Notes under the pieces: model-generated
Told to the model about the DNA's origin: nothing
Seen by the model: only the letters and a program-made list of their open reading frames with translations
Database searches by the model: none
Shown here: piece by piece, positions 9,996 through 32,116 of the stretch
Layout: the number at the start of each line of letters is the position of its first letter
Position numbering within the stretch: position 1 is the stretch's first letter
Source: Chloroflexota bacterium
GTDB lineage: Bacteria; Chloroflexota; Dormibacteria; CF-121
NCBI GenBank assembly: GCA_005880395.1
Contig: VBHQ01000010.1
Coordinates: forward strand, 1-32,116
DNA: 32,116 nt
Direction: 5' to 3'
Program-made: the position numbers and the translations under genes

Positions 9996-10913
9996 TTGGC
10001 TCGCAAATCAACCGAACACTTTGAAATGGTGCCGAGGGGGCCGTTCGACCTGGAAAATCAGGCCGGTCGGTTCGGCGGATGGCCGAAGTTACGCGATGCG
10101 ATCGTCATGGCCTTCCCGATCGAAGGATGGACCGCCTCCGCCGCCGTCGTCATGCGCCAAGAAGGAGCACGGATCACCGGCGAGGTCCATGGAGCGGACG
10201 GGGCGATCGCCGAACAGGCCTGGGCCCAGGCGTTGGCGACGCTCTCGCTTGATGTCGATGGGATTGGGTTTGTCGAGGTGGGGAAACGCGACCCCGTGAT
10301 CGGCCGTCTACAAGCGGAACACAAGAATCTCCGGCCCGTGTTGTTTCACTCGCCGTACGAGGCGGCGTGTGCCTTCTTGATCGGTCATCGCATCACCATC
10401 CTCCAGACACGCCGCATTCGCCAGGTGATGGCCGAGGCGGCCGGCGCGGCGATCACAATTGACGGCAGCGCATTTTACGCGTTTCCGGATCCGCACGCGC
10501 TGTTGAAGCTCGAGGATTTTCCGGGCGTCTCATCGATCAAGGTGGAGCGATTGCACGCAGCGGCGCGAGCGGCACTCGATGGCACCCTCGACCGGCAGCA
10601 GCTGCGGGCGCTACCGGAGACCAACGGCCTGGAGGTGCTGCGGGCACTTCCAGGTATCGGCGAATACTTTGCGCAGGGCATCCTGATGCGGGGCGCCGGT
10701 CTGGTCGATGCCGTGACCGATGACGACCTCACACCACGAGCTATCGAGCTGCTCTATGGGCTCAAGGCACGGCCGACGCGCGATGAGGTGCTGAAGCGTG
10801 CCGAGGCCTGGCGGCCATTTCGAATGTGGGCCGTAGTTCTGCTCAACGTCTGGCTCCGGAGCCAGCCGGCCGACGTCATTGGTCGGCGACAAACCCGACG
10901 ACGCCCCAAGTAA
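9996..10913 (+). CDS. DNA-3-methyladenine glycosylase II-like (AlkA/HhH-GPD) protein
   Basis: This base-excision repair glycosylase has about 305 residues. The N-terminal AlkA-type half begins FEMVPRGPFDL and continues to about residue 105. The helix-hairpin-helix is LPGIGEYFAQGI (G220-I-G222), followed by DAVTDDDL, where D244 aligns with the catalytic aspartate of the GPD loop. It should remove alkylated purines from DNA. The TTG at 9996 is chosen because homologous N-termini begin just before the FEMVPRGPF strand; ATG 10026 would cut it, and the frame further upstream overlaps the PsiE gene and looks non-coding. The PsiE stop lies just ahead, so the pair may be co-transcribed. Confidence 0.85.
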   Translation: MARKSTEHFEMVPRGPFDLENQAGRFGGWPKLRDAIVMAFPIEGWTASAAVVMRQEGARITGEVHGADGAIAEQAWAQALATLSLDVDGIGFVEVGKRDPVIGRLQAEHKNLRPVLFHSPYEAACAFLIGHRITILQTRRIRQVMAEAAGAAITIDGSAFYAFPDPHALLKLEDFPGVSSIKVERLHAAARAALDGTLDRQQLRALPETNGLEVLRALPGIGEYFAQGILMRGAGLVDAVTDDDLTPRAIELLYGLKARPTRDEVLKRAEAWRPFRMWAVVLLNVWLRSQPADVIGRRQTRRRPK

Positions 10914-22722: not shown

Positions 22723-23472
22723 TTGCGGGGCGCGCTCGTCCAATTCCTGGGATCAGGTGACGCATTCGGGAGCGGCGGCCGCTATCAGGCGTGCATCCGC
22801 GTGGTAATGGGCCGAAATACTGTATTGCTCGACTGTGGGGCCTCGTCGCTAATTGCAATGAAAGCGGCGAATGTCGACCCCGGGACGGTGGACGGCATCG
22901 TCATTACACATCTTCACGGTGATCATTTTGCCGGCGTCCCATTCTTGATCCTTGATGGGCAGTTTTCTCGGAGGCGGCGGAAGCTCACGATCGCAGGGCC
23001 CGTCGGGGTGCGGGCCCGAGTCGAGGCTGCTATGGAGATACTCTTCCCTGGCTCCACGTCCGTGGCTCGGCCATTCGAGATCCAGTGGCGCGAACTCAAA
23101 CCTCGACACGCTATCACGGTAGCGGGTTTTAGCGTGAACAGCTTCGAGGTGATCCATGCAAGCGGCGCGCCGGCTCTTGCATTGCGGCTCTCCGCTGACA
23201 CCACCACCATCGCATACTCGGGAGACACCGAGTGGACGGATGAGCTTATTGCAGCAGCTTCTAAAGCTGAGCTGTTCGTGTGCGAGGCATACGCGTTCGA
23301 CAAGGCCATCAAATACCACCTTAGCTACCGGACCTTGGCGGACCACTTGAAGGCCATCTCGGCTAAACGGGTCATCCTGACACACCTCGGGTCGGATCTC
23401 CTCGGCCACTTGGACGAGGTAGCCGCAGACGTCGCATACGACGGGTTGATGGTGACGATCGATGACGATTGA
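22723..23472 (+). CDS. Metallo-beta-lactamase fold hydrolase (RNase Z-like group)
   Basis: This 249-residue protein has the zinc motif THLHGDHFAG, preceded by VLLDCGAS. AYSGDTEW provides the bridging aspartate, and later histidines (YHLSYRT, LTHLGSD) complete the site. The N-terminus LVQFLGSGDAFGSGGRYQACI is typical of the RNase Z/AtsA-like group. No RNase Z exosite insertion is seen, so it is more likely a small-molecule hydrolase or phosphodiesterase. The TTG at 22723 is chosen because the fold starts right after it; no clear ribosome site is visible. Its end overlaps the next gene by 11 bases, so the two are coupled. Confidence 0.88.
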   Translation: MRGALVQFLGSGDAFGSGGRYQACIRVVMGRNTVLLDCGASSLIAMKAANVDPGTVDGIVITHLHGDHFAGVPFLILDGQFSRRRRKLTIAGPVGVRARVEAAMEILFPGSTSVARPFEIQWRELKPRHAITVAGFSVNSFEVIHASGAPALALRLSADTTTIAYSGDTEWTDELIAAASKAELFVCEAYAFDKAIKYHLSYRTLADHLKAISAKRVILTHLGSDLLGHLDEVAADVAYDGLMVTIDDD

Positions 23473-25759
23473 CTACGTCAGACAGCAGCAGAAGGCCCAG
23501 GCGTTCCAGGCGCTCCATGTTGGAGACCCGTTCATCATCCCCAATCCCTGGGATGCCGGCTCCGCGCGCGTGCTCGAGGCGCTCGGATTCAGGGCGCTCG
23601 CGACCACGAGCTCGGGGTTCGCATTTACCCTGGGCCGGCTCGATGGCCGTGCCACGCTCGATGAAGTCGTCTCCCACGCCGCCGCGCTCAACCGGGTTAC
23701 CGAGCTTCCCGTGTCGGTCGACCTCGAGAATGGATATGGCCCGACCCCGGAGCATGCCGCCGCCGCGATCCGCGCAGTCGCAGCCGTCGGCGCGGTTGGC
23801 GGCTCGATCGAGGACTTCGATCCTTCAGGCGAGATTTACGCGATCCGCCGCGCGGCCGAACGTGTCCGTGCCGCCGCGACCGCTGCGCGCGAGCTCGGAT
23901 TTCCGTTTGTCCTAACCTCACGCGCCGAAAACCACATTAGAGGCAACCCGGATCTCGACGACACGATCAAGCGGCTGCAAGCTTACGAGGAGGCGGGCGC
24001 CGACGTGCTGTATGCGCCGGGCCTCAACAACCTCGACGAAGTCCGTGCCGTCTGTCGGGCGATCTCAAAACCGGTAAACGTGCTTGCCGTCCCGGGCCTA
24101 ACGATGACGGCAATCGCCGAGGCCGGCGCCCGGCGCGTTAGCGTCGGCGGCAGCCTTACGTGGGTAGCGGTCAGAGCGATGGTAGATGCGGTGGAGGCGA
24201 TGAGAGACTCGGGTGACTTCTCGGCCGTCGCAGCGCACGTCCCCCTTGGTAGGAGGGGAATCATGTATCGACCGAAGCGACACCAATTTGGGCTCGCGCT
24301 GTCAATCGCCGCAAGTGCGGCGTTGCTCGGGTCGGCGACAGGATTGGCATTCGGGGTCGTCTCTGTCAGTGACGCGTCCGCCGGCAAAAGCCTGTTTTCG
24401 ACGTGCCAGAACCTGGGGCCGACAGACGGAGGAACGAACTATCCGCAAACCGAGATCGAACCGCGGATCGCCGTTAGCCCGTTCAATCACGATCACATCA
24501 TTTCCGTCTATCAGCAGGATCGATGGTCGAACGGCGGCGCTCGTGGGCTGGTCGCGGCGATCTCGACCAACGGCGGCACGACCTGGAGGCAGACCGCTCC
24601 GGCATTCAGTCTGTGCTCGGGAAACAACGAATGGGATCGCGCCAGCGACCCCTGGATCAGTTTTGATCCGGCCGGCAACGCCTATTTCGTCGCACTGGTT
24701 TCGAGCGCCGATGAATCCCACAGCGGAATCCTGGTCAGCAAGCTGACCGAAAGTCAGCTGGCGAAAAACAAGTTCAACTGGAGCACCCCGTCAACGGTCA
24801 TCGACCAGTTTGCGAACAATATCGGGCTTGGCTTCAACGACAAGGAGTCGATTACCGCCGATCCGACCCGTCCCGGATACGTCTACGCGGTTTGGGACCG
24901 TAGTAATTTGCCGGGCGAGGACCGCATCAATGCGCATAGCTTCCATGCGTTCTCGTATCGGCAGGAGACCGTCTTCTCTCGTAGCACCGACTACGGCAGC
25001 ACCTGGTCGGCACCACAGGCGGAGTTTTTCAGCAACCAGGTTACGATCGGGAATCAGATCGTCGTCGAACCGGACGGAACGCTGGCGGATTTCTTTTGGG
25101 CCGGCAAAGGTTCCGGCATCCAGCCCAATGAGAACTCCAGCCATCAGGCTGTCATGTATTCGAACGATGCCGGTCTGCGCTGGACGCCGCCATCGATCGT
25201 GACGGCTGCCTACCCATTGGACGTGATGGATCCGAACAACGGCGACTTGGTGCGCGCTGGCACCAATATTCCGGATGCCTCCGTCGATCCGAACACCGGC
25301 ACGATGTATGTTGTCTGGGGCGATGGACGCTTCTCAAACTTCAGCCACGACGACATCGCCCTGGCGAAGTCGACAGACGGTGGCAAGACGTGGTCCACAC
25401 CTGCAAAGGTCAACCAGACCAGTAACGGCGCGGCGGCCTTCACAGCCAGCGTGCACGTGGCTTCAGATGGATCGGTGGCTGTGGCCTATTACGACTTTCG
25501 CAACTATGACCAGGACACGGATGGAGTTGAGACCGACTACTTCCTGGCCCGATCGACCGATGGTGCCGTCAGCTGGAGCGAATCACGGGTCACGTTGACC
25601 TCCTTCAACATTCAGCTGGCCCCAAAAACGATCAGCGGAAATGATTTCTTGGGCGACTACGCCGGCATCAGTAGCGCCGGCTCGACCTACTTCACAACGT
25701 TTGTAGGGACAGGAAGTTCAGCAGACCCGACGGACGACTACGTAGCGCGGGCAAGTTAG
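23462..25759 (+). CDS. PEP mutase/isocitrate lyase-family enzyme, frame fused to a BNR-repeat exported protein
   Basis: The open frame has 765 residues, of which about 1-262 are a PEP mutase/isocitrate lyase-type barrel: VGDPFIIPNPWDAGSARVLEALGF, ATTSSGFAFTLGRLDG, LPVSVDLENGYG (metal-binding acidic loop), GGSIEDF, LTSRAENHI and YAPGLNN. Members cleave or form C-C or C-P bonds on oxaloacetate- or PEP-like substrates; the substrate here is unknown. From residue 268 the frame continues into what looks like a separate secreted protein with its own ribosome site and signal peptide. A TAG at 24250, one base out of frame, lies just before that ribosome site, and a run of five C at 24241-24245 precedes it. 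One more C would end the enzyme there, so the fusion may be a frameshift artefact. The start overlaps the preceding hydrolase gene by 11 bases. Confidence 0.8.
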   Translation: MTIDYVRQQQKAQAFQALHVGDPFIIPNPWDAGSARVLEALGFRALATTSSGFAFTLGRLDGRATLDEVVSHAAALNRVTELPVSVDLENGYGPTPEHAAAAIRAVAAVGAVGGSIEDFDPSGEIYAIRRAAERVRAAATAARELGFPFVLTSRAENHIRGNPDLDDTIKRLQAYEEAGADVLYAPGLNNLDEVRAVCRAISKPVNVLAVPGLTMTAIAEAGARRVSVGGSLTWVAVRAMVDAVEAMRDSGDFSAVAAHVPLGRRGIMYRPKRHQFGLALSIAASAALLGSATGLAFGVVSVSDASAGKSLFSTCQNLGPTDGGTNYPQTEIEPRIAVSPFNHDHIISVYQQDRWSNGGARGLVAAISTNGGTTWRQTAPAFSLCSGNNEWDRASDPWISFDPAGNAYFVALVSSADESHSGILVSKLTESQLAKNKFNWSTPSTVIDQFANNIGLGFNDKESITADPTRPGYVYAVWDRSNLPGEDRINAHSFHAFSYRQETVFSRSTDYGSTWSAPQAEFFSNQVTIGNQIVVEPDGTLADFFWAGKGSGIQPNENSSHQAVMYSNDAGLRWTPPSIVTAAYPLDVMDPNNGDLVRAGTNIPDASVDPNTGTMYVVWGDGRFSNFSHDDIALAKSTDGGKTWSTPAKVNQTSNGAAAFTASVHVASDGSVAVAYYDFRNYDQDTDGVETDYFLARSTDGAVSWSESRVTLTSFNIQLAPKTISGNDFLGDYAGISSAGSTYFTTFVGTGSSADPTDDYVARAS
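24263..25759 (+). CDS. Exported BNR/Asp-box repeat (sialidase-like) protein, probable separate start
   Basis: From the ATG at 24263, preceded by AGGAGGGG, the product has 498 residues and a signal peptide (YRPKRHQFGLALSIAASAALLGSATGLA). It carries about five Asp-box-like motifs of the S-x-D-x-G-x-x-W type: STNGGTTW, STDYGSTW, SNDAGLRW, STDGGKTW and STDGAVSW, plus repeated strands such as AGNAYFVAL and SVAVAYYDF. This indicates a beta-propeller like sialidases or other BNR proteins. No sialidase Arg-triad can be assigned with confidence, so the activity is unknown. The signal peptide would be buried if translated only as part of the long fusion, so independent initiation is likely. It ends 16 bases before a strong hairpin. 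Confidence 0.6.
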   Translation: MYRPKRHQFGLALSIAASAALLGSATGLAFGVVSVSDASAGKSLFSTCQNLGPTDGGTNYPQTEIEPRIAVSPFNHDHIISVYQQDRWSNGGARGLVAAISTNGGTTWRQTAPAFSLCSGNNEWDRASDPWISFDPAGNAYFVALVSSADESHSGILVSKLTESQLAKNKFNWSTPSTVIDQFANNIGLGFNDKESITADPTRPGYVYAVWDRSNLPGEDRINAHSFHAFSYRQETVFSRSTDYGSTWSAPQAEFFSNQVTIGNQIVVEPDGTLADFFWAGKGSGIQPNENSSHQAVMYSNDAGLRWTPPSIVTAAYPLDVMDPNNGDLVRAGTNIPDASVDPNTGTMYVVWGDGRFSNFSHDDIALAKSTDGGKTWSTPAKVNQTSNGAAAFTASVHVASDGSVAVAYYDFRNYDQDTDGVETDYFLARSTDGAVSWSESRVTLTSFNIQLAPKTISGNDFLGDYAGISSAGSTYFTTFVGTGSSADPTDDYVARAS

Positions 25760-25812: not shown

Positions 25813-28104
25813 TCAACGGAAGTTGAAGCAGCAAATACCATCCACCTGGAGGGGCAGCTCGTCGGCCTCCGCCTGAGGATTGGTGACCGCCGCCTGCTGG
25901 CGCGCGGCTCCGAAGGCGTATGAGCCGACTTCCTCGAGGAGGCTCGATGTGGTCGGCGCACCGACGTCGGCCCCGGCGACCTTGATCGTGACCGTGCATG
26001 GATTGTTCGACGATGGCGTGGCAGGGCAGTTGACCGTCCCGGTCTCGTTGTTACCGCCGGTCGCGGGCGCCTCCGGATAGACGATCACATGCGGGTTGCA
26101 CGCCGAAACCGAGCAGAGGTCGATGCTTTGGGCGCGTCCCGCGAAGAACTGATACTTCCCCGCGGCAGCGAGCGCGGGAGTCGTCTCCATCATCGCGTAA
26201 TAGATGATGTTGCCCATTTGCCAACGGGTCACGTACTGAAGGAACTGCGCACCGATGACGTTGGTGCTGGCCAACGCCACGCCCGTGGCGCTGACGTCGG
26301 CGACCTTCATCGTGACCGTTAGCGTGCCGTTCTTCGACAGACTGAGCCCATTGGCGGTGAAGTCGAATCCGGGCACCGGAGCGCCTCCGATGACCGGGTA
26401 CCGGCCGTCGCCACTGGCATCCTTCATGCCGGAGGTGGGTGCGCTCGTCGGTTCGTTGCTCAGGCCGGTGACCGACGTGCCAAAGAGCCCGGGCCCGCCG
26501 TTCTGCTGCGCAATCGTTACCACCGGCGCGCCCGGATGGTCCACCAGCCCGCTCGTAGGCGTGAACGCGGGCTGGATCAACCCGTTCGAGGTGTCGTCAT
26601 ATTCGACCTGCGCGGCGCCGCTGTGATCGACGGTCACGGTGAAGAAGTCAGCCAGATTGCGGTCGCCCTTCTGCGTAATGCAGCCAGTGCCGGCCAGGCA
26701 GATGCTGTTGTAGTGCATCGGATGTGGGGACACTTTGACCATGGTCATCGTGGGTGCCGCCAGGGTCACGCCTCCCGCCGCGTCGACCGGCCAAACAACC
26801 TGGGACATGTACACGTTCCAGGCCTGGCCACCATTGGTGCTCGGGTCGATGAAGGCATCGGTGCCATACCAGACGGAATCGGAGCGGCCCGCCGCTCCCG
26901 CCACCACCCAGGGAAAGACGTTCACGTTCGACGGCGCCAGGCTCACCTGCACCGGCGTCGCCCACTGCGTCCAGTTGGTGGCGGCGCTGGCGACAGTGGT
27001 GAACACCTGGTAAGTGCTGGTCGTGCCGCTCACCGATCCAACCACGGCATACGTGACATGAAGGTTGCGGCCGGTGTCCATGGACGCTACGGGGAAGAGA
27101 TTGTCGGGATCGCCGGCGAGGCCGCCGGCGATCGTGATCAAGCCCGTTCCGACCGGACAAGTGACGGGGACGCCGCCGATCGTGATGGACGCGGGATCGT
27201 CGAGGAAGCAGAGATTGCCGCTTGCGTCCACCGGCGTGCCGATGTTGAGACAGAGGCCGTTGCCGCTTGCGCACCCCGACGCTTCGAACACTTTGCCGGT
27301 CAGCTGATCGACGGCCGGGTAGCCATCCGAACCGAAGTTGCCATTGTCGCTATTGGCCGGCGCGTAGTTCAGGCCGTCGGTGCTCTTTACCCAGTACGCG
27401 GGGTTGGCCTGCGTCGTTTGCAGGTTGTTGTACTCCATGTAGGTGAGCGGCGCCAGCGAGCGGTCCGGCGCCGTGCTGGTCACGCCTGTCAGCTGCGGGT
27501 CGAAGCCGACGAGCCACTGCCGATCCGACCCGTCTGGACGGCTCGCCGGGCTGACTGTCGGGGAATTGCAGCCGTAGGCGTTCTGCAGCGCGGTCGCGCC
27601 ATGGTCGTTCGTGGTTGCCACGCGGTCGCAGGCCAGCGCCCACAGGTCGGCGAAGTAATCCTTTCCGTTGTGGTCCACATGCTGGTCGGTATCGCCCCCA
27701 CCAGGGGGATTCGGGCTCCCGACAACCGCAGTCGGCGGCAGGCATTCGGTCGCCACCTCGCCTGACTGCGGCGCGCACTGCCCGACCAGCCGGAATGTCT
27801 CGCCCCCATCGGCGGACGCGTCCCAGATACTCCGCTGCGTTCCGGTGCCCCAGGGGCCGCTGGCGTACACCGTGCCGTCCGCCGCCGGACTGTGAACGAT
27901 GGTGGGCTCACCGACCGTGTGATTCGGGTCCATGACCATCGGGGTCGCGAACGTGATCGCGCTCGACCCCTTGGCAGCTGCCCCGGTGGGGGAACCAACC
28001 CCGACCACCGCGGCGGCAGCCAGCGCAAGCGCTCCGAGCGCTGCGATTCCACGCTTGCCATGAACCCCACCCGAGCTACTCGCCGCGCCGCTCCTTCTGA
28101 CCAT
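25813..28104 (-). CDS. Large exported protein with BNR-like segments, function unknown
   Basis: This protein of about 763 residues has a signal peptide (basic start, HGKRGIAALGALALAAAAVVGVGSPTGAAA). The mature part is beta-rich and poor in lysine, with an Asp-box-like SADGGETFRL near residue 97 and repeated strand patterns (SDSVWYGTDAF, NLHVTYAVVG), suggesting a propeller-type exoprotein. A later region (about 560-650) has Ig-like pattern NGTLTVTMKVADVSATGVAL. The C-terminus carries a vicinal cysteine pair (DGICCFNFR). No catalytic motif or anchor is recognised. ATG 28104 is chosen because AGGAG lies 7 bases upstream; GTG 28110 is too close to it. It faces the other exported protein gene across the hairpin. 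Confidence 0.8.
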   Translation of the reverse strand: MVRRSGAASSSGGVHGKRGIAALGALALAAAAVVGVGSPTGAAAKGSSAITFATPMVMDPNHTVGEPTIVHSPAADGTVYASGPWGTGTQRSIWDASADGGETFRLVGQCAPQSGEVATECLPPTAVVGSPNPPGGGDTDQHVDHNGKDYFADLWALACDRVATTNDHGATALQNAYGCNSPTVSPASRPDGSDRQWLVGFDPQLTGVTSTAPDRSLAPLTYMEYNNLQTTQANPAYWVKSTDGLNYAPANSDNGNFGSDGYPAVDQLTGKVFEASGCASGNGLCLNIGTPVDASGNLCFLDDPASITIGGVPVTCPVGTGLITIAGGLAGDPDNLFPVASMDTGRNLHVTYAVVGSVSGTTSTYQVFTTVASAATNWTQWATPVQVSLAPSNVNVFPWVVAGAAGRSDSVWYGTDAFIDPSTNGGQAWNVYMSQVVWPVDAAGGVTLAAPTMTMVKVSPHPMHYNSICLAGTGCITQKGDRNLADFFTVTVDHSGAAQVEYDDTSNGLIQPAFTPTSGLVDHPGAPVVTIAQQNGGPGLFGTSVTGLSNEPTSAPTSGMKDASGDGRYPVIGGAPVPGFDFTANGLSLSKNGTLTVTMKVADVSATGVALASTNVIGAQFLQYVTRWQMGNIIYYAMMETTPALAAAGKYQFFAGRAQSIDLCSVSACNPHVIVYPEAPATGGNNETGTVNCPATPSSNNPCTVTIKVAGADVGAPTTSSLLEEVGSYAFGAARQQAAVTNPQAEADELPLQVDGICCFNFR

Positions 28105-28252
28105 CTGCACTCTCCTCGCCCTGTGCTTGATTTATGCCGAAGGTATATCGAAAAGTGATCCCCAGTACCAGTCAAAGAAGCATACTCTGGCTGTGCCGCT
28201 AAGCGCTACCGGCTAGGCCCTGTTTGGCCTCTGCGCCGGTGGCCGATTCATA

Positions 28253-28687
28253 ATGGCTGGCATGGCCAGCGATGACCTGGTGGTGAACCGTGTTCACTCA
28301 GCGAGTACGGCCACGCCGGGCCGCTCCATCAATGAGATTCGCAACCACCAGCTCGTCATTGACGAGCCGACCCACCTTGGCGGTCCGGGCGTAGAGATCA
28401 CGCCGGCCGACGCCTTCGTGTCCGGGGTGGCAGCGTGCGGTGTTCTTCTGGTTCAGGGCCGTGCCCGGGAGACCGGCATCCAGCTCGACAAGATCGAGGT
28501 GGACCTGGAAGCCGTTCGGCATCGAAGCGATACGTCGGTGTTCCAGCGCATCGCGATGCGTTTTCGGCTCGCCGGCCCAAGTCAGCAGGAGGGCCAGGCA
28601 CTGGTCGAGCACTACCAGACTCATTGACCGCTCTACAAAGCGGTCGCGGTCGCGACCACGACCACCGTAAGCGTGGAGGTCTCTTAG
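28253..28687 (+). CDS. OsmC-family protein with in-frame TGA at the second catalytic cysteine (candidate selenoprotein)
   Basis: Up to the TGA at 28625-28627 the frame gives 124 residues of an OsmC/Ohr-type protein, including the first catalytic cysteine C62 in SGVAACGVLLVQ. The TGA is codon 125, right after LVEHYQTH, where the family has its second catalytic cysteine (typically CPLY or CPVH). Beyond it the same frame reads PLYKAVAVATTTTVSVEVS and then TAG at 28685, matching the family C-terminus in sequence and length. OsmC-like proteins reduce peroxides or other electrophiles through the two thiols. Either TGA encodes selenocysteine, or the gene has a nonsense mutation or a base error. The readthrough stop abuts the convergent antiporter gene. 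A CATAAT at 28249-28254 lies 7 bases before an in-frame ATG at 28262, which may be the true, leaderless start. Confidence 0.75.
28642..28663 (+). promoter_or_regulatory. Possible bacterial SECIS-like hairpin after the OsmC TGA
   Basis: GGTCG/CGACC, a C-A mismatch, then GGT/ACC enclose a CGCG loop. The loop begins 23 bases after the TGA and has G at its second position, within the known constraints for bacterial SECIS elements. A competing perfect 7-bp hairpin at 28626-28645 overlaps it, and GC-rich DNA forms such stems easily, so this is tentative. Confidence 0.25.
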
Positions 28688-29708
28688 CCGACCACTCGTT
28701 GGGGGAGCCGGACCAGGAAGGTCGACGCCGCGATCGTCAGCACGACGGCGGCCAGGATCGCCGAGTAAAGCTCGGCAGGGATCACCCCACGCGTGACGCC
28801 GATGGTGGCGAGCACGAAACTGAACTCCCCAATCTGGCCCAGTCCGATCGCAACCTGAAGCGGCCGGCCCGCAACCCTGCTGATCCTCGTCATCAAATAG
28901 ATTGGCGCGATCTTGGCCACGAGCAGCAACCCAAGCACCAGCAGCAGCCAAGCCCATCCACGGAGCACCGCGGCTGGATCGATCAAGGTCCCGATCGCAA
29001 CAAAGAACATCACCGCGAACACATCCCGAAATGGCAGGAGCCGCTCGCGAGCTTCGCTGGACTCGGGACTCTCGCTGATCGCCAGGCCTGACAGAAACGC
29101 AGCAAGTGCCAGCGGGATGCCGAAGAGCAAGCCGCCGATCCCAGCCAGGGCAAGGGCGCTGGCGACGGAAACAATCAAGAAGAGGTCGTGATCCGTTCGG
29201 AGCCGGCGCAGAAAGCCGGGCAAAATCCAGGTCGCCACGACCACGAGCAGTACGTAGAGCAGCGTCAGCTGCAGGGCATCCCAACCAGAACGTCCTTCCA
29301 GCCCGAGCGCGATCACGGCAATCAAGGCGATCGTCACCCCCACGATGTCCTGCAATACGCTCCACCCGAGCAGCACCTCATCGGTTGCCGGGTCCGTCGT
29401 GCGGCGGCGGCTTCGCGTGATGTTGACGACCACGAGAGCGCGAAAAGCCGACCCCGATTTCGCCCGAGCTTCAGCGGGTCAAGCTCAATGCCGACTTCGA
29501 AGAGCAGGAGAATCACGCCCAGGTCGGCGAACAACTGAAGCTGTTGACGGTCGGCGACATAACCGGGAGTGAAGGGGGAGACGATCAAGCCCGTGGCGAG
29601 GTAGCCGATCACCGCCGGAAGGCCGGCACGACGGGCCAGCCAGCCGAGAACCGCGGCCAGCAGGAGGACGAACCCGATTTCGAAAATCGCACGCGCGGTC
29701 GTATCCAT
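28684..29708 (-). pseudogene. Cation:proton antiporter (CPA2/KefB-like), broken by deletion and frameshift
   Basis: The 5' part (29708 to about 29440) encodes the first helices: FEIGFVLLLAAVLGWLARRAGLPAVIGYLATGLIVSPF, then LFADLGVILLLFEVGIELDPLKLGR. The 3' part (about 29433 to 28684), in a different frame, resumes at VVVNITRSRRRTTDPATDEVLLGWSVLQDIVGVTIAL and runs to the end of the membrane domain. In intact homologues roughly 35-45 residues, about one helix and its loop, lie between LGR and the VVV strand; here only about 8 remain. A small deletion of a length not divisible by three therefore removed a helix and broke the frame. The product would not be functional unless the join is an assembly error. 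No TrkA-type regulatory domain follows. Confidence 0.75.
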
Positions 29709-29783: not shown

Positions 29784-30161
29784 ATGACCTTCCTCCGTGT
29801 CCTCCTGAGCGTCTTCTCGATCGTTAACGTCGTCTTCTGGGCCGTGCTGGCATGGTCATGGGCCGTCAAGCCGGCCTGGGCCGCAAAACTGCCACTCGGC
29901 TTGGGTACTGCTCCGCAAAGTCGGATGAGCGTGCCAGTCTGGGCTCGTCTCGCGGCGGCCGTTGCTGGTTTCTGGGCGGTTGCGGCCGTCCTGTACCTGA
30001 CGGTCTACGAGGCGAATCGGTTGGCGCTCGTGGCGCTGTTCGTGCTCGCGGTCATCTTCTTGATCCTTGGGATCGGGGCTGCGGCTCGGATCTACCAGGT
30101 CCTGCAGATGCCCAAGGCGACGGCGATGCACCTCCCACGCGGCCAGCAGCGGGCAAGCTAA
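29784..30161 (+). CDS. Small membrane protein with three hydrophobic segments
   Basis: This protein of about 125 residues has hydrophobic stretches at about 4-26, 53-75 and 80-103 and a short basic tail. No family is recognised. The ATG at 29784 is used because membrane coding starts right there. There is no Shine-Dalgarno, but TACCGT lies 9 bases upstream, a possible -10 for a near-leaderless transcript. The frame upstream is the shadow of the antiporter gene. Its last 110 bases overlap the convergent EamA gene. Confidence 0.6.
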   Translation: MTFLRVLLSVFSIVNVVFWAVLAWSWAVKPAWAAKLPLGLGTAPQSRMSVPVWARLAAAVAGFWAVAAVLYLTVYEANRLALVALFVLAVIFLILGIGAAARIYQVLQMPKATAMHLPRGQQRAS

Positions 30162-31008
30162 CTCGACCGGTCGCGAACAGCGATCCGAGCAGGATCAGCC
30201 CGAAGCCTACGACCGCGCCCACGGTGAACGGTTCGTGCAGCACGACAACGCCGAGTAGGAGCGCGACCGCCGGGTTGAAGTAGGTGATCACGGTGGCGCG
30301 AACCGGTCCAGCTTCCGCGATCAGCGCGAAAAACAGCAAAAAGGCGAGCGCGGTGCACACGACGCCGAGCGTGGCGACGGCGAGCAGCACCTGCACGGAT
30401 GGCAGCCGAGCCGGCAAATGCGGTAAGGCCAGCGGCGCGTAGGCGACCGCCGTCAGGACCAGCGACGCGGCAACCACCCCCATCGAAGGAAGCGACGGCA
30501 GGCGCCGAGAGACGATGATCGGGCCGGTCGCGTATCCAATGGCCACCAGGCCAACCTCCACGACTGCACCCAGGTCCCGAAAGGACACGTTGAGGCCGAC
30601 CAGCGCCGCAACCCCGACCAGGCCAAGCAGCAGACCGCCGATCCGTCGAACGTCGAGGCGATCGTCGCCGCGGGTCAGCCAGGTGATGACGGCACCGATC
30701 AAGGGCACGGCCGCGATCAGCAGGCCGGTCAGCGAGCTGGACAGGCGGCGCTCGGCGTCAGAGAGCAGGAACCACGGCAATGACACTTCGACCACGGTGT
30801 AGGCGAGGACCCAGGGCCATAGCCGGAACAATGGACGGAACCCGCCAGTCATCGCCGCGACCGGCAAGAGAATCAGCGCGCCAAGCGCGGTACGGAAGAA
30901 CACGAGTGTCACTGGCGTCAGCTCGCCGACCGCGACCTTGATCAATAAGTAGGGGATCCCCCAGATAATCGCCATGGCGGCGAAAAGGGCCCAGCCGCGA
31001 CGCGTCAT
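30052..31008 (-). CDS. EamA/DMT family transporter
   Basis: This 318-residue protein has ten hydrophobic segments forming two EamA repeats, the first from WALFAAMAIIWGIPYLLIKVAVGELTPVTLVFFRTALGALILLP and the second from LGAVVEVGLVAIGYATGPIIVSRRLPSLP. The second ends in VRATVITYFNPAVALLLGVVVLHEPFTVGAVVGFGLILLGSLFA, typical of metabolite exporters of this superfamily; the substrate is unknown. After the last helix a Pro/Ser/Arg-rich tail of about 40 residues has no family counterpart and runs through the convergent neighbour, suggesting loss of an earlier stop codon. The ATG at 31008 fits the family N-terminus. Confidence 0.92.
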   Translation of the reverse strand: MTRRGWALFAAMAIIWGIPYLLIKVAVGELTPVTLVFFRTALGALILLPVAAMTGGFRPLFRLWPWVLAYTVVEVSLPWFLLSDAERRLSSSLTGLLIAAVPLIGAVITWLTRGDDRLDVRRIGGLLLGLVGVAALVGLNVSFRDLGAVVEVGLVAIGYATGPIIVSRRLPSLPSMGVVAASLVLTAVAYAPLALPHLPARLPSVQVLLAVATLGVVCTALAFLLFFALIAEAGPVRATVITYFNPAVALLLGVVVLHEPFTVGAVVGFGLILLGSLFATGRVSLPAAGRVGGASPSPWASAGPGRSEPQPRSQGSRR

Positions 31009-31078: not shown

Positions 31079-32116
31079 TCAGCCGGCGTCTGCTTCCGGA
31101 AGGATCTCTTCGCCGGTGTACGCGGATGCCTGCAACCGGAACAGGCGGGCGTAGCGGCCACTCAGCCGCATCAATTGCTCGTGTGTTCCTTGCTCAACGA
31201 GCTGCCCGTGCTCCAGGAACAGGATCCGATCGGCCCGCCGGACGGTTGAGAAGCGGTGCGAGATGTACACCGCGGTCTTCCCGCGGGTCAGGGTGCGAAG
31301 GCGCTCAAAGAGGTCGTACTCGGCCTGGGCATCGAGCGCTGAGGTCGGCTCGTCGAGCAGCAGGATCCGCGCGTCCCGCATGAAGGCACGCGCGAGGGCG
31401 ACCTTCTGCCATTCGCCGCCCGAGAGGTTGACGCCGGCGTCGAACCATTTCCCAAGCGCCGTGTCATAGCCGGCCGGCAGGCCGGCAATCAGCGAGTCAG
31501 CTCCTGCCTGTTGACCGGCGCGCGCGACTGCCTCGCGATCGGCGAGATGGCTGAGGTTGCCGAGGCCGATGTTCTCGGCCGCCGTCGCCTGATAGGCGAC
31601 GTAGTCCTGGAACATGCCGCCAATCTGGGCGCGGAGTTGATCGGGCTCGTAATCCCGGATATCGACGCCGTCGACGAGGATCCGACCCTCGACCGGATCG
31701 TAGAGCCGGCAGATCAGCTTGAAGAGGGTCGTCTTCCCGGCGCCGTTGCGGCCGACGATCGCGACGGTCTCGCCGGGGGCGATGGTAAAGCTCAAGTCGT
31801 CAAGCGCGTTTTCCTTGGCGTCCGGGTAGGCGAAGGTGACGTGCTCGAACCGCAACTCTCCTCGGAGCGGCACGGGTACCGGGACCGGGTGGCTGGGGAC
31901 AGGGAGCTTGGTCTCGGTCGCCATGAGCTCGAACAGGTTGCTGAGGTAGAGGTTGTGCTCGTACATGCTGGAAAAGCCGCTCAGGATTCCCTGGATCGAG
32001 TTCTGGACGGATTGGGCTGCGGTCGTGTAGAGCGTCAGGTCGCCAAGCGTCAGCCGGCCGGCGATCGCCTGGAGCGCCACATATAAATAGGTCACCGACG
32101 TGGCGACGGTGCTGAG
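31079..32116 (-). CDS. ABC transporter, permease-ATPase fusion (exporter type), 5' end outside the window
   Basis: The frame is open to the window edge, so this is the 3' part (345 codons) of a longer gene. The first ~70 residues are the end of an exporter-type membrane domain (YLYVALQAIAGRLTLGDLTLYTTAAQSVQNSIQGILSGFSSMYEHNLYLSNLFELMA). The ATPase domain has Walker A GRNGAGKTT, the Q-loop at MFQDY, the signature LSGGEWQKVALARAF, Walker B ILLLDEPTSALD and the H-loop histidine in YISHRF. Such half-transporters export peptides, lipids or drugs as dimers; the substrate cannot be told. Confidence 0.93.
   Translation of the reverse strand, partial: LSTVATSVTYLYVALQAIAGRLTLGDLTLYTTAAQSVQNSIQGILSGFSSMYEHNLYLSNLFELMATETKLPVPSHPVPVPVPLRGELRFEHVTFAYPDAKENALDDLSFTIAPGETVAIVGRNGAGKTTLFKLICRLYDPVEGRILVDGVDIRDYEPDQLRAQIGGMFQDYVAYQATAAENIGLGNLSHLADREAVARAGQQAGADSLIAGLPAGYDTALGKWFDAGVNLSGGEWQKVALARAFMRDARILLLDEPTSALDAQAEYDLFERLRTLTRGKTAVYISHRFSTVRRADRILFLEHGQLVEQGTHEQLMRLSGRYARLFRLQASAYTGEEILPEADAG

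Follow-up and report, generated by a model that had tools for sequence, protein, structure and literature searches.

The question raised by this locus is whether a TGA codon within an OsmC-family gene is a stop, an error, a codon with a new meaning throughout the genome, or a site of selenocysteine (Sec) insertion. The gene is encoded on the forward strand of a 32,116-nucleotide stretch of DNA, referred to here as the window, that is part of a MAG composed of 221 contigs and estimated to be 79% complete. We conclude with high confidence, based on comparisons of nucleotide and protein sequences, that the UGA at 28625–28627 is decoded as Sec in a redox protein of the OsmC fold under the direction of a SECIS element, and that this protein represents a second type of OsmC selenoprotein. 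We therefore refer below to the residue encoded by the TGA as Sec125.

The reading frame and its conservation

The gene (28253–28687, forward strand) contains one in-frame TGA, at 28625–28627 (Table 1). An earlier interpretation, hereafter the sequence-only reading, described this codon as preceded by LVEHYQTH and followed by PLYKAVAVA and a beta strand up to a TAG at 28685, which is borne out by our analysis: LVEHYQTH precedes the TGA, and PLYKAVAVATTTTVSVEVS and a TAG at 28685–28687 succeed it. The same interpretation placed the start of the gene at 28253; given that relatives begin at the column of the fourth residue (M4), the ATG at 28262 is the likelier start. The match to the Pfam OsmC model (PF02566) spans the TGA (residues 46–138, E-value of 6e-12, 46.2 bits compared with a curated cut-off of 27.5), which makes the read-through protein a member of the OsmC family by the curated cut-off, albeit one that differs in the predicted presence of Sec at the second Cys position. 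Both redox columns of the family are filled, with Cys62 aligned to the first Cys of Ohr chains and Sec125 to the second. An alignment of the family profile with Ohr sequences from the PDB likewise places the two redox positions on the two Ohr Cys residues, with the second Cys-Pro of Ohr on the TGA column.

Table 1. Coordinates of the gene and of features within it
Feature	Position	Strand	Remarks
Gene of the probable OsmC-family selenoprotein	28253..28687	+	TGA read through; product of 144 aa if translated from 28253 and of 141 aa if from 28262, the likelier start
Likely start codon, ATG	28262..28264	+	Column shared with the starts of relatives L022 and L024
Codon of Arg24 in the N-terminal GR motif	28322..28324	+	Invariant; by sequence it may correspond to Arg19, a catalytic residue of XfOhr
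TGC, Cys62, first active-site Cys	28436..28438	+	Equivalent of the Ohr peroxidatic Cys; Sec position in the NF041052 family
TGA, predicted Sec125, second active-site position	28625..28627	+	Equivalent of the Ohr resolving Cys
Predicted SECIS hairpin, GGUCGC-GGUC-GCGACC	28642..28657	+	Within the coding sequence; spans +18 to +33, counted from the TGA T
SECIS tetraloop, N1-G-U-N2	28648..28651	+	GGUC in the window; no variation at G and U; N1 and N2 covary (GC/CG/AU)
C-terminal beta strand, TTTVSVEVS	28658..28684	+	3' of the SECIS; third codon positions about twice as variable as first and second positions in family members
True stop codon, TAG	28685..28687	+	End of the read-through ORF

The simplest alternative is that the TGA is a real stop and that the product is a truncated protein of 124 aa. 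A plain gene caller applied to the window yields exactly this product, ending at the TGA. However, a protein ending at the TGA would lack the second redox residue as well as residues 126–143, which based on structure prediction comprise the last helix and strand (the structure was predicted from a single sequence with a pLDDT of 54 and is used only for the order of the secondary structure elements). In every relative the corresponding residues are kept in frame, and neither a TAA nor a TAG occurs ahead of the homologous end; we consider it very improbable that translation terminates at the TGA.

A comparison of the read-through protein with 400 genomes of the phylum identified 24 genomes, including that of the window, in which a TGA is found inside the match. 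Seven additional genomes with the TGA belong to the same family and two belong to another class, for a total of 33 genomes. Re-translation and alignment reveal that every TGA falls in a single column, that of the second OsmC Cys, and in nearly all aligned relatives the TGA is followed by the motif PLY[KRG][AT]VAVAT. Given that the TGA occupies the same column in 33 genomes, its presence is not due to chance. The TGA forms extend to protein identities as low as approximately 35% to the window protein. Only a few close homologues have TGC or TGT in this column (L026, L033, L035, L047, and L070, the last of which is a Candidatus Tectomicrobia locus). Scans of genome contigs with a back-translated Cys query, which are blind to TGA forms, yielded a single Cys homologue, located in a MAG of Candidatus Tectomicrobia. 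The Sec and Cys forms are interleaved on the phylogenetic tree, with three to five label changes, and one bacterial family contains both forms (Cys in G378 and Sec in G482).

The region downstream of the TGA evolves as coding sequence, as had been proposed from the composition of its codons. In 12 family members, codon variation after the SECIS is 0.32, 0.29, and 0.61 at the first, second, and third positions, respectively, a pattern of a translated region that reflects constraint at the protein level. These observations bear on a second alternative, which the sequence-only reading had left standing, that the TGA arose by a nonsense mutation or by a sequencing or assembly error in an ordinary Cys-containing OsmC gene. 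The MAG does have other apparent assembly faults, with approximately 115 nt missing from the adjacent antiporter gene and 121 nt missing from selB (see below), which would be in keeping with an error. However, the conservation of the same TGA in 33 genomes at identities down to approximately 35%, the selection acting at the protein level on the codons 3' of it, and the covarying SECIS described in the next section argue against this alternative; the conservation of the TGA removes it as a serious contender, and we assign it a very small probability.

The gene neighborhood was also considered as a clue to function and rejected as such, as the only conserved component is a convergent Na+/H+ exchanger gene present in five genus members. 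The read-through stop had been said to abut this gene; the two genes are indeed convergent, but rather than abutting they overlap, as the TAG shares positions with the exchanger stop codon (28684–28686). The exchanger gene (28684–29708, reverse strand) is split into two frames, and approximately 115 nt found in relatives are missing near 29431–29443. Farther upstream in the window, an ORF on the forward strand (23462–25759, 765 aa) encodes a phosphoenolpyruvate mutase domain (residues 15–247) and a BNR repeat region (residues 557–720), which may represent a fusion or a missing junction, and an ORF on the reverse strand (25813–28110, 765 aa) encodes a protein that contains a signal-like stretch at its N-terminus and matches no Pfam model at an E-value of 0.001.

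A covarying hairpin within the coding sequence

Bacterial SECIS elements have a stem of 4 bp or more and a loop of the form N1-G-[G/U]-N-N2 in which N1 and N2 are paired (PMC13188914), and are further characterized by a distance of 16–37 nt from the UGA to the loop and a folding energy of −7.5 kcal/mol or lower (PMC13188914, a review). The candidate hairpin in the window has a stem of 6 bp, a GGUC loop, a spacing of 20 nt, and an energy of −11.1 kcal/mol, such that its stem, loop with N1-N2 pairing, spacing, and energy all fit the model of bacterial SECIS elements without departure. In an alignment numbered from the T of the TGA as position 1, columns 18–33 have the consensus GGUYGC-NGUN-GCRACC, and all seven nested pairs form in 31 sequences (30 distinct, 100% paired). 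Two of these pairs change while remaining paired: pair 21–30 alternates between C-G and U-A, and pair 24–27 is G-C, C-G, or A-U. The protein does not explain this switching given that the bases involved are third positions of Val and Ala codons and the changes are synonymous. Pair 24–27 is Watson–Crick in 24 of 24 sequences from across the phylum compared with 37% expected from codon usage, a contrast that does not amount to a formal probability as the sequences are related. Among 12 family members, the SECIS codons vary by 0, 0, and 0.18 at the first, second, and third positions compared with 0.16, 0.12, and 0.50 in the region upstream, and in Cys homologues only two to four of the seven pairs remain. 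Based on the conservation of the SECIS pairs and their covariation at synonymous positions, we infer that the AVAVAT motif located right after the Sec is kept mainly by the RNA.

The best predicted fold of the isolated window RNA is not the SECIS hairpin, but rather a rival hairpin that includes the UGA. This minimum free energy hairpin (columns 2–8 paired with 15–21) was rejected, as it shows no covariation and one of its pairs is broken in 12 of 30 sequences.

A third alternative is that TGA has acquired a new meaning (Trp, Gly, or Cys) throughout the genome instead of being recoded at this site, a reading that has in its favor solely that this codon is read through. The hairpin 3' of the codon, which is specific for UGA, is at odds with a global reassignment, as is the use of TGA as a stop codon elsewhere. 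Because TGA serves as the stop codon of other genes in the window (25813–28110, 30052–31008, and 31079–32095) and of several family members (L029, L034, L038–L041, L044, and L045), we conclude that it is not reassigned and regard this alternative as having a very small probability.

Components for selenocysteine insertion

Local recoding of the TGA predicts that the machinery for Sec insertion is encoded in these genomes. The genome of the window carries selA (532 bits), selB (323 bits), and selD (395 bits), and a tRNA-Sec with the anticodon UCA is present in 11 of the 18 genomes of the family, in support of what the sequence-only reading proposed. The tRNA-Sec was not found in the 79%-complete MAG itself, in which five sub-threshold matches all correspond to Ser, Leu, or Cys tRNAs and in which the tRNA-Sec DNA of a relative used as a query had no match. 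A selA match was identified in all 31 of the Sec-form genomes examined, one of which (G404) has only a fragment at a contig end; however, this presence is weakly discriminating given that selA is common in the phylum, scoring over the cut-off in 46 of 51 genomes. The selD gene (G000:C106:25284-26213, L014) contains an in-frame TGA of its own (GAGUACK), which places a Sec in the active site of SelD and makes it a further selenoprotein of this organism.

The selB gene of the MAG (G000:C184, about 10080–10215, L020) lacks 121 nt in comparison with four relatives and has a frameshift before the region encoding the C-terminus, such that the SECIS-binding region located there is no longer read in frame, whereas the selB genes of the relatives are intact. 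If this lesion is real, the population would be unable to insert Sec efficiently. It is plausible that the gap is an assembly fault, given the similar gap of approximately 115 nt in the antiporter gene adjoining the OsmC-family gene; the alternative is a true lesion. The comparative evidence indicates that SelB and tRNA-Sec decode the UGA at 28625–28627 as Sec, directed by the SECIS at 28642–28657 within the coding sequence.

Two OsmC subfamilies with opposite placement of the selenocysteine

The replacement of the second catalytic Cys by Sec, as first suggested by the sequence-only reading, is supported by the correspondence of the TGA column to the second Cys of Ohr and OsmC proteins together with the covarying SECIS and the Sec machinery. 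That reading also pointed to known OsmC selenoproteins. Such proteins exist, and OsmC-like selenoproteins with the motif UxxT have been listed since 2005 (PMC1088965; also PMC2398784, PMC13188914), but they form another OsmC subfamily in which the Sec is located at the first Cys. The NCBIfam model for OsmC-like selenoproteins, NF041052 (OsmC_like_Se), has a cut-off of 95 bits, and the window protein, at 36.8 bits, is below it. Members of our set A1 (n = 21) reach a best E-value of 8e-11 against this model and score 22–41 bits among the matches listed, none of which is over the cut-off. Conversely, 27 genomes of the phylum encode proteins over the NF041052 cut-off, of which 26 have a TGA; these proteins have Sec at the first position (AFU-LLTQ, corresponding to UxxT) and Cys at the second (ERACHAAQ). 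Given the name of the model and the matching motif, we infer that the recovered proteins are the UxxT family of the published lists. The window protein does not match the Sec position of NF041052, having Cys62 first and Sec second, the latter followed by PLY (UPLY).

The genome of the window also encodes a member of the NF041052 family (G000:C199:7467-7892, L098; 147 bits) with a TGA at the first active-site position. The two proteins are alike in the OsmC fold, in having one Sec in the active-site pair, in their dependence on the bacterial SECIS machinery, and in their presence in the same genome; they differ in that the window protein, with Cys first and Sec second, is a mirror image of the NF041052 protein, with Sec first and Cys second. 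The alignments thus indicate that there is a conserved OsmC subfamily with a second-position Sec that is so far without a model and mirrors the UxxT family, and that a single cell line carries two OsmC paralogues whose predicted Sec residues occupy opposite members of the redox pair. The literature searched, which was largely open access, yielded no account of an OsmC selenoprotein with Sec at the second position.

Insight into the roles of the two residues comes from Ohr. In the Ohr of Xylella (XfOhr), Cys61 is peroxidatic and Cys125 is resolving (PMC5962072), and the first Cys, activated by an Arg and a Glu, is the residue that attacks (PMC5962072). The window protein scores 29.1 bits against the Ohr model TIGR03561, below the cut-off of 88.85. 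It is similar to Ohr in the two active-site columns, in the Pro after the second of these, and in the conserved N-terminal Arg, and differs in the predicted Sec at the second position and in that the catalytic Glu of Ohr (NPEQLF) falls in another column. The TP-x-[DE] motif aligns such that its acidic residue is displaced by one column from the catalytic Glu of Ohr, and the Ohr triad is therefore not strictly kept. By alignment, Sec125, at the site of the resolving Cys, faces Cys62, at the site of the peroxidatic Cys. By analogy with Ohr, the protein may act as a peroxide or disulfide reductase by way of a Cys62–Sec125 selenenylsulfide that would be re-reduced by a cellular dithiol. We consider it somewhat more likely that Cys62 is oxidized by the substrate and that Sec125 resolves the intermediate and speeds recycling.

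Sec in redox selenoproteins is usually found at the attacking position. This tendency, the presence of Sec at the first position in the sister family, and the displaced acidic residue of TP-x-[DE], with an Ohr triad that is not strictly kept, favor the opposite order, in which Sec125 would attack and Cys62 would resolve, inverting the polarity of catalysis in the OsmC fold. The retention of the helix bearing Cys62 and of the invariant Arg24 points the other way, given that the Arg and Glu of Ohr activate the first Cys (PMC5962072). We put forward only tentatively a scheme in which the family with Sec at the site of the resolving Cys, as a second and mirror-image group of OsmC selenoproteins, attacks through Sec125 and resolves through Cys62, and in which both families act in one cell.

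Standard annotation cuts short the members of this OsmC subfamily at the UGA that specifies the second-position Sec, and a SECIS with clean synonymous covariation provides material for tuning selenoprotein finders. In this small fold, the first and the second redox position have each been converted to Sec, in separate subfamilies that coexist in one genome. As a natural pair, the two subfamilies lend themselves to the questions of why Sec is favored at a given active-site position and whether Sec can resolve.
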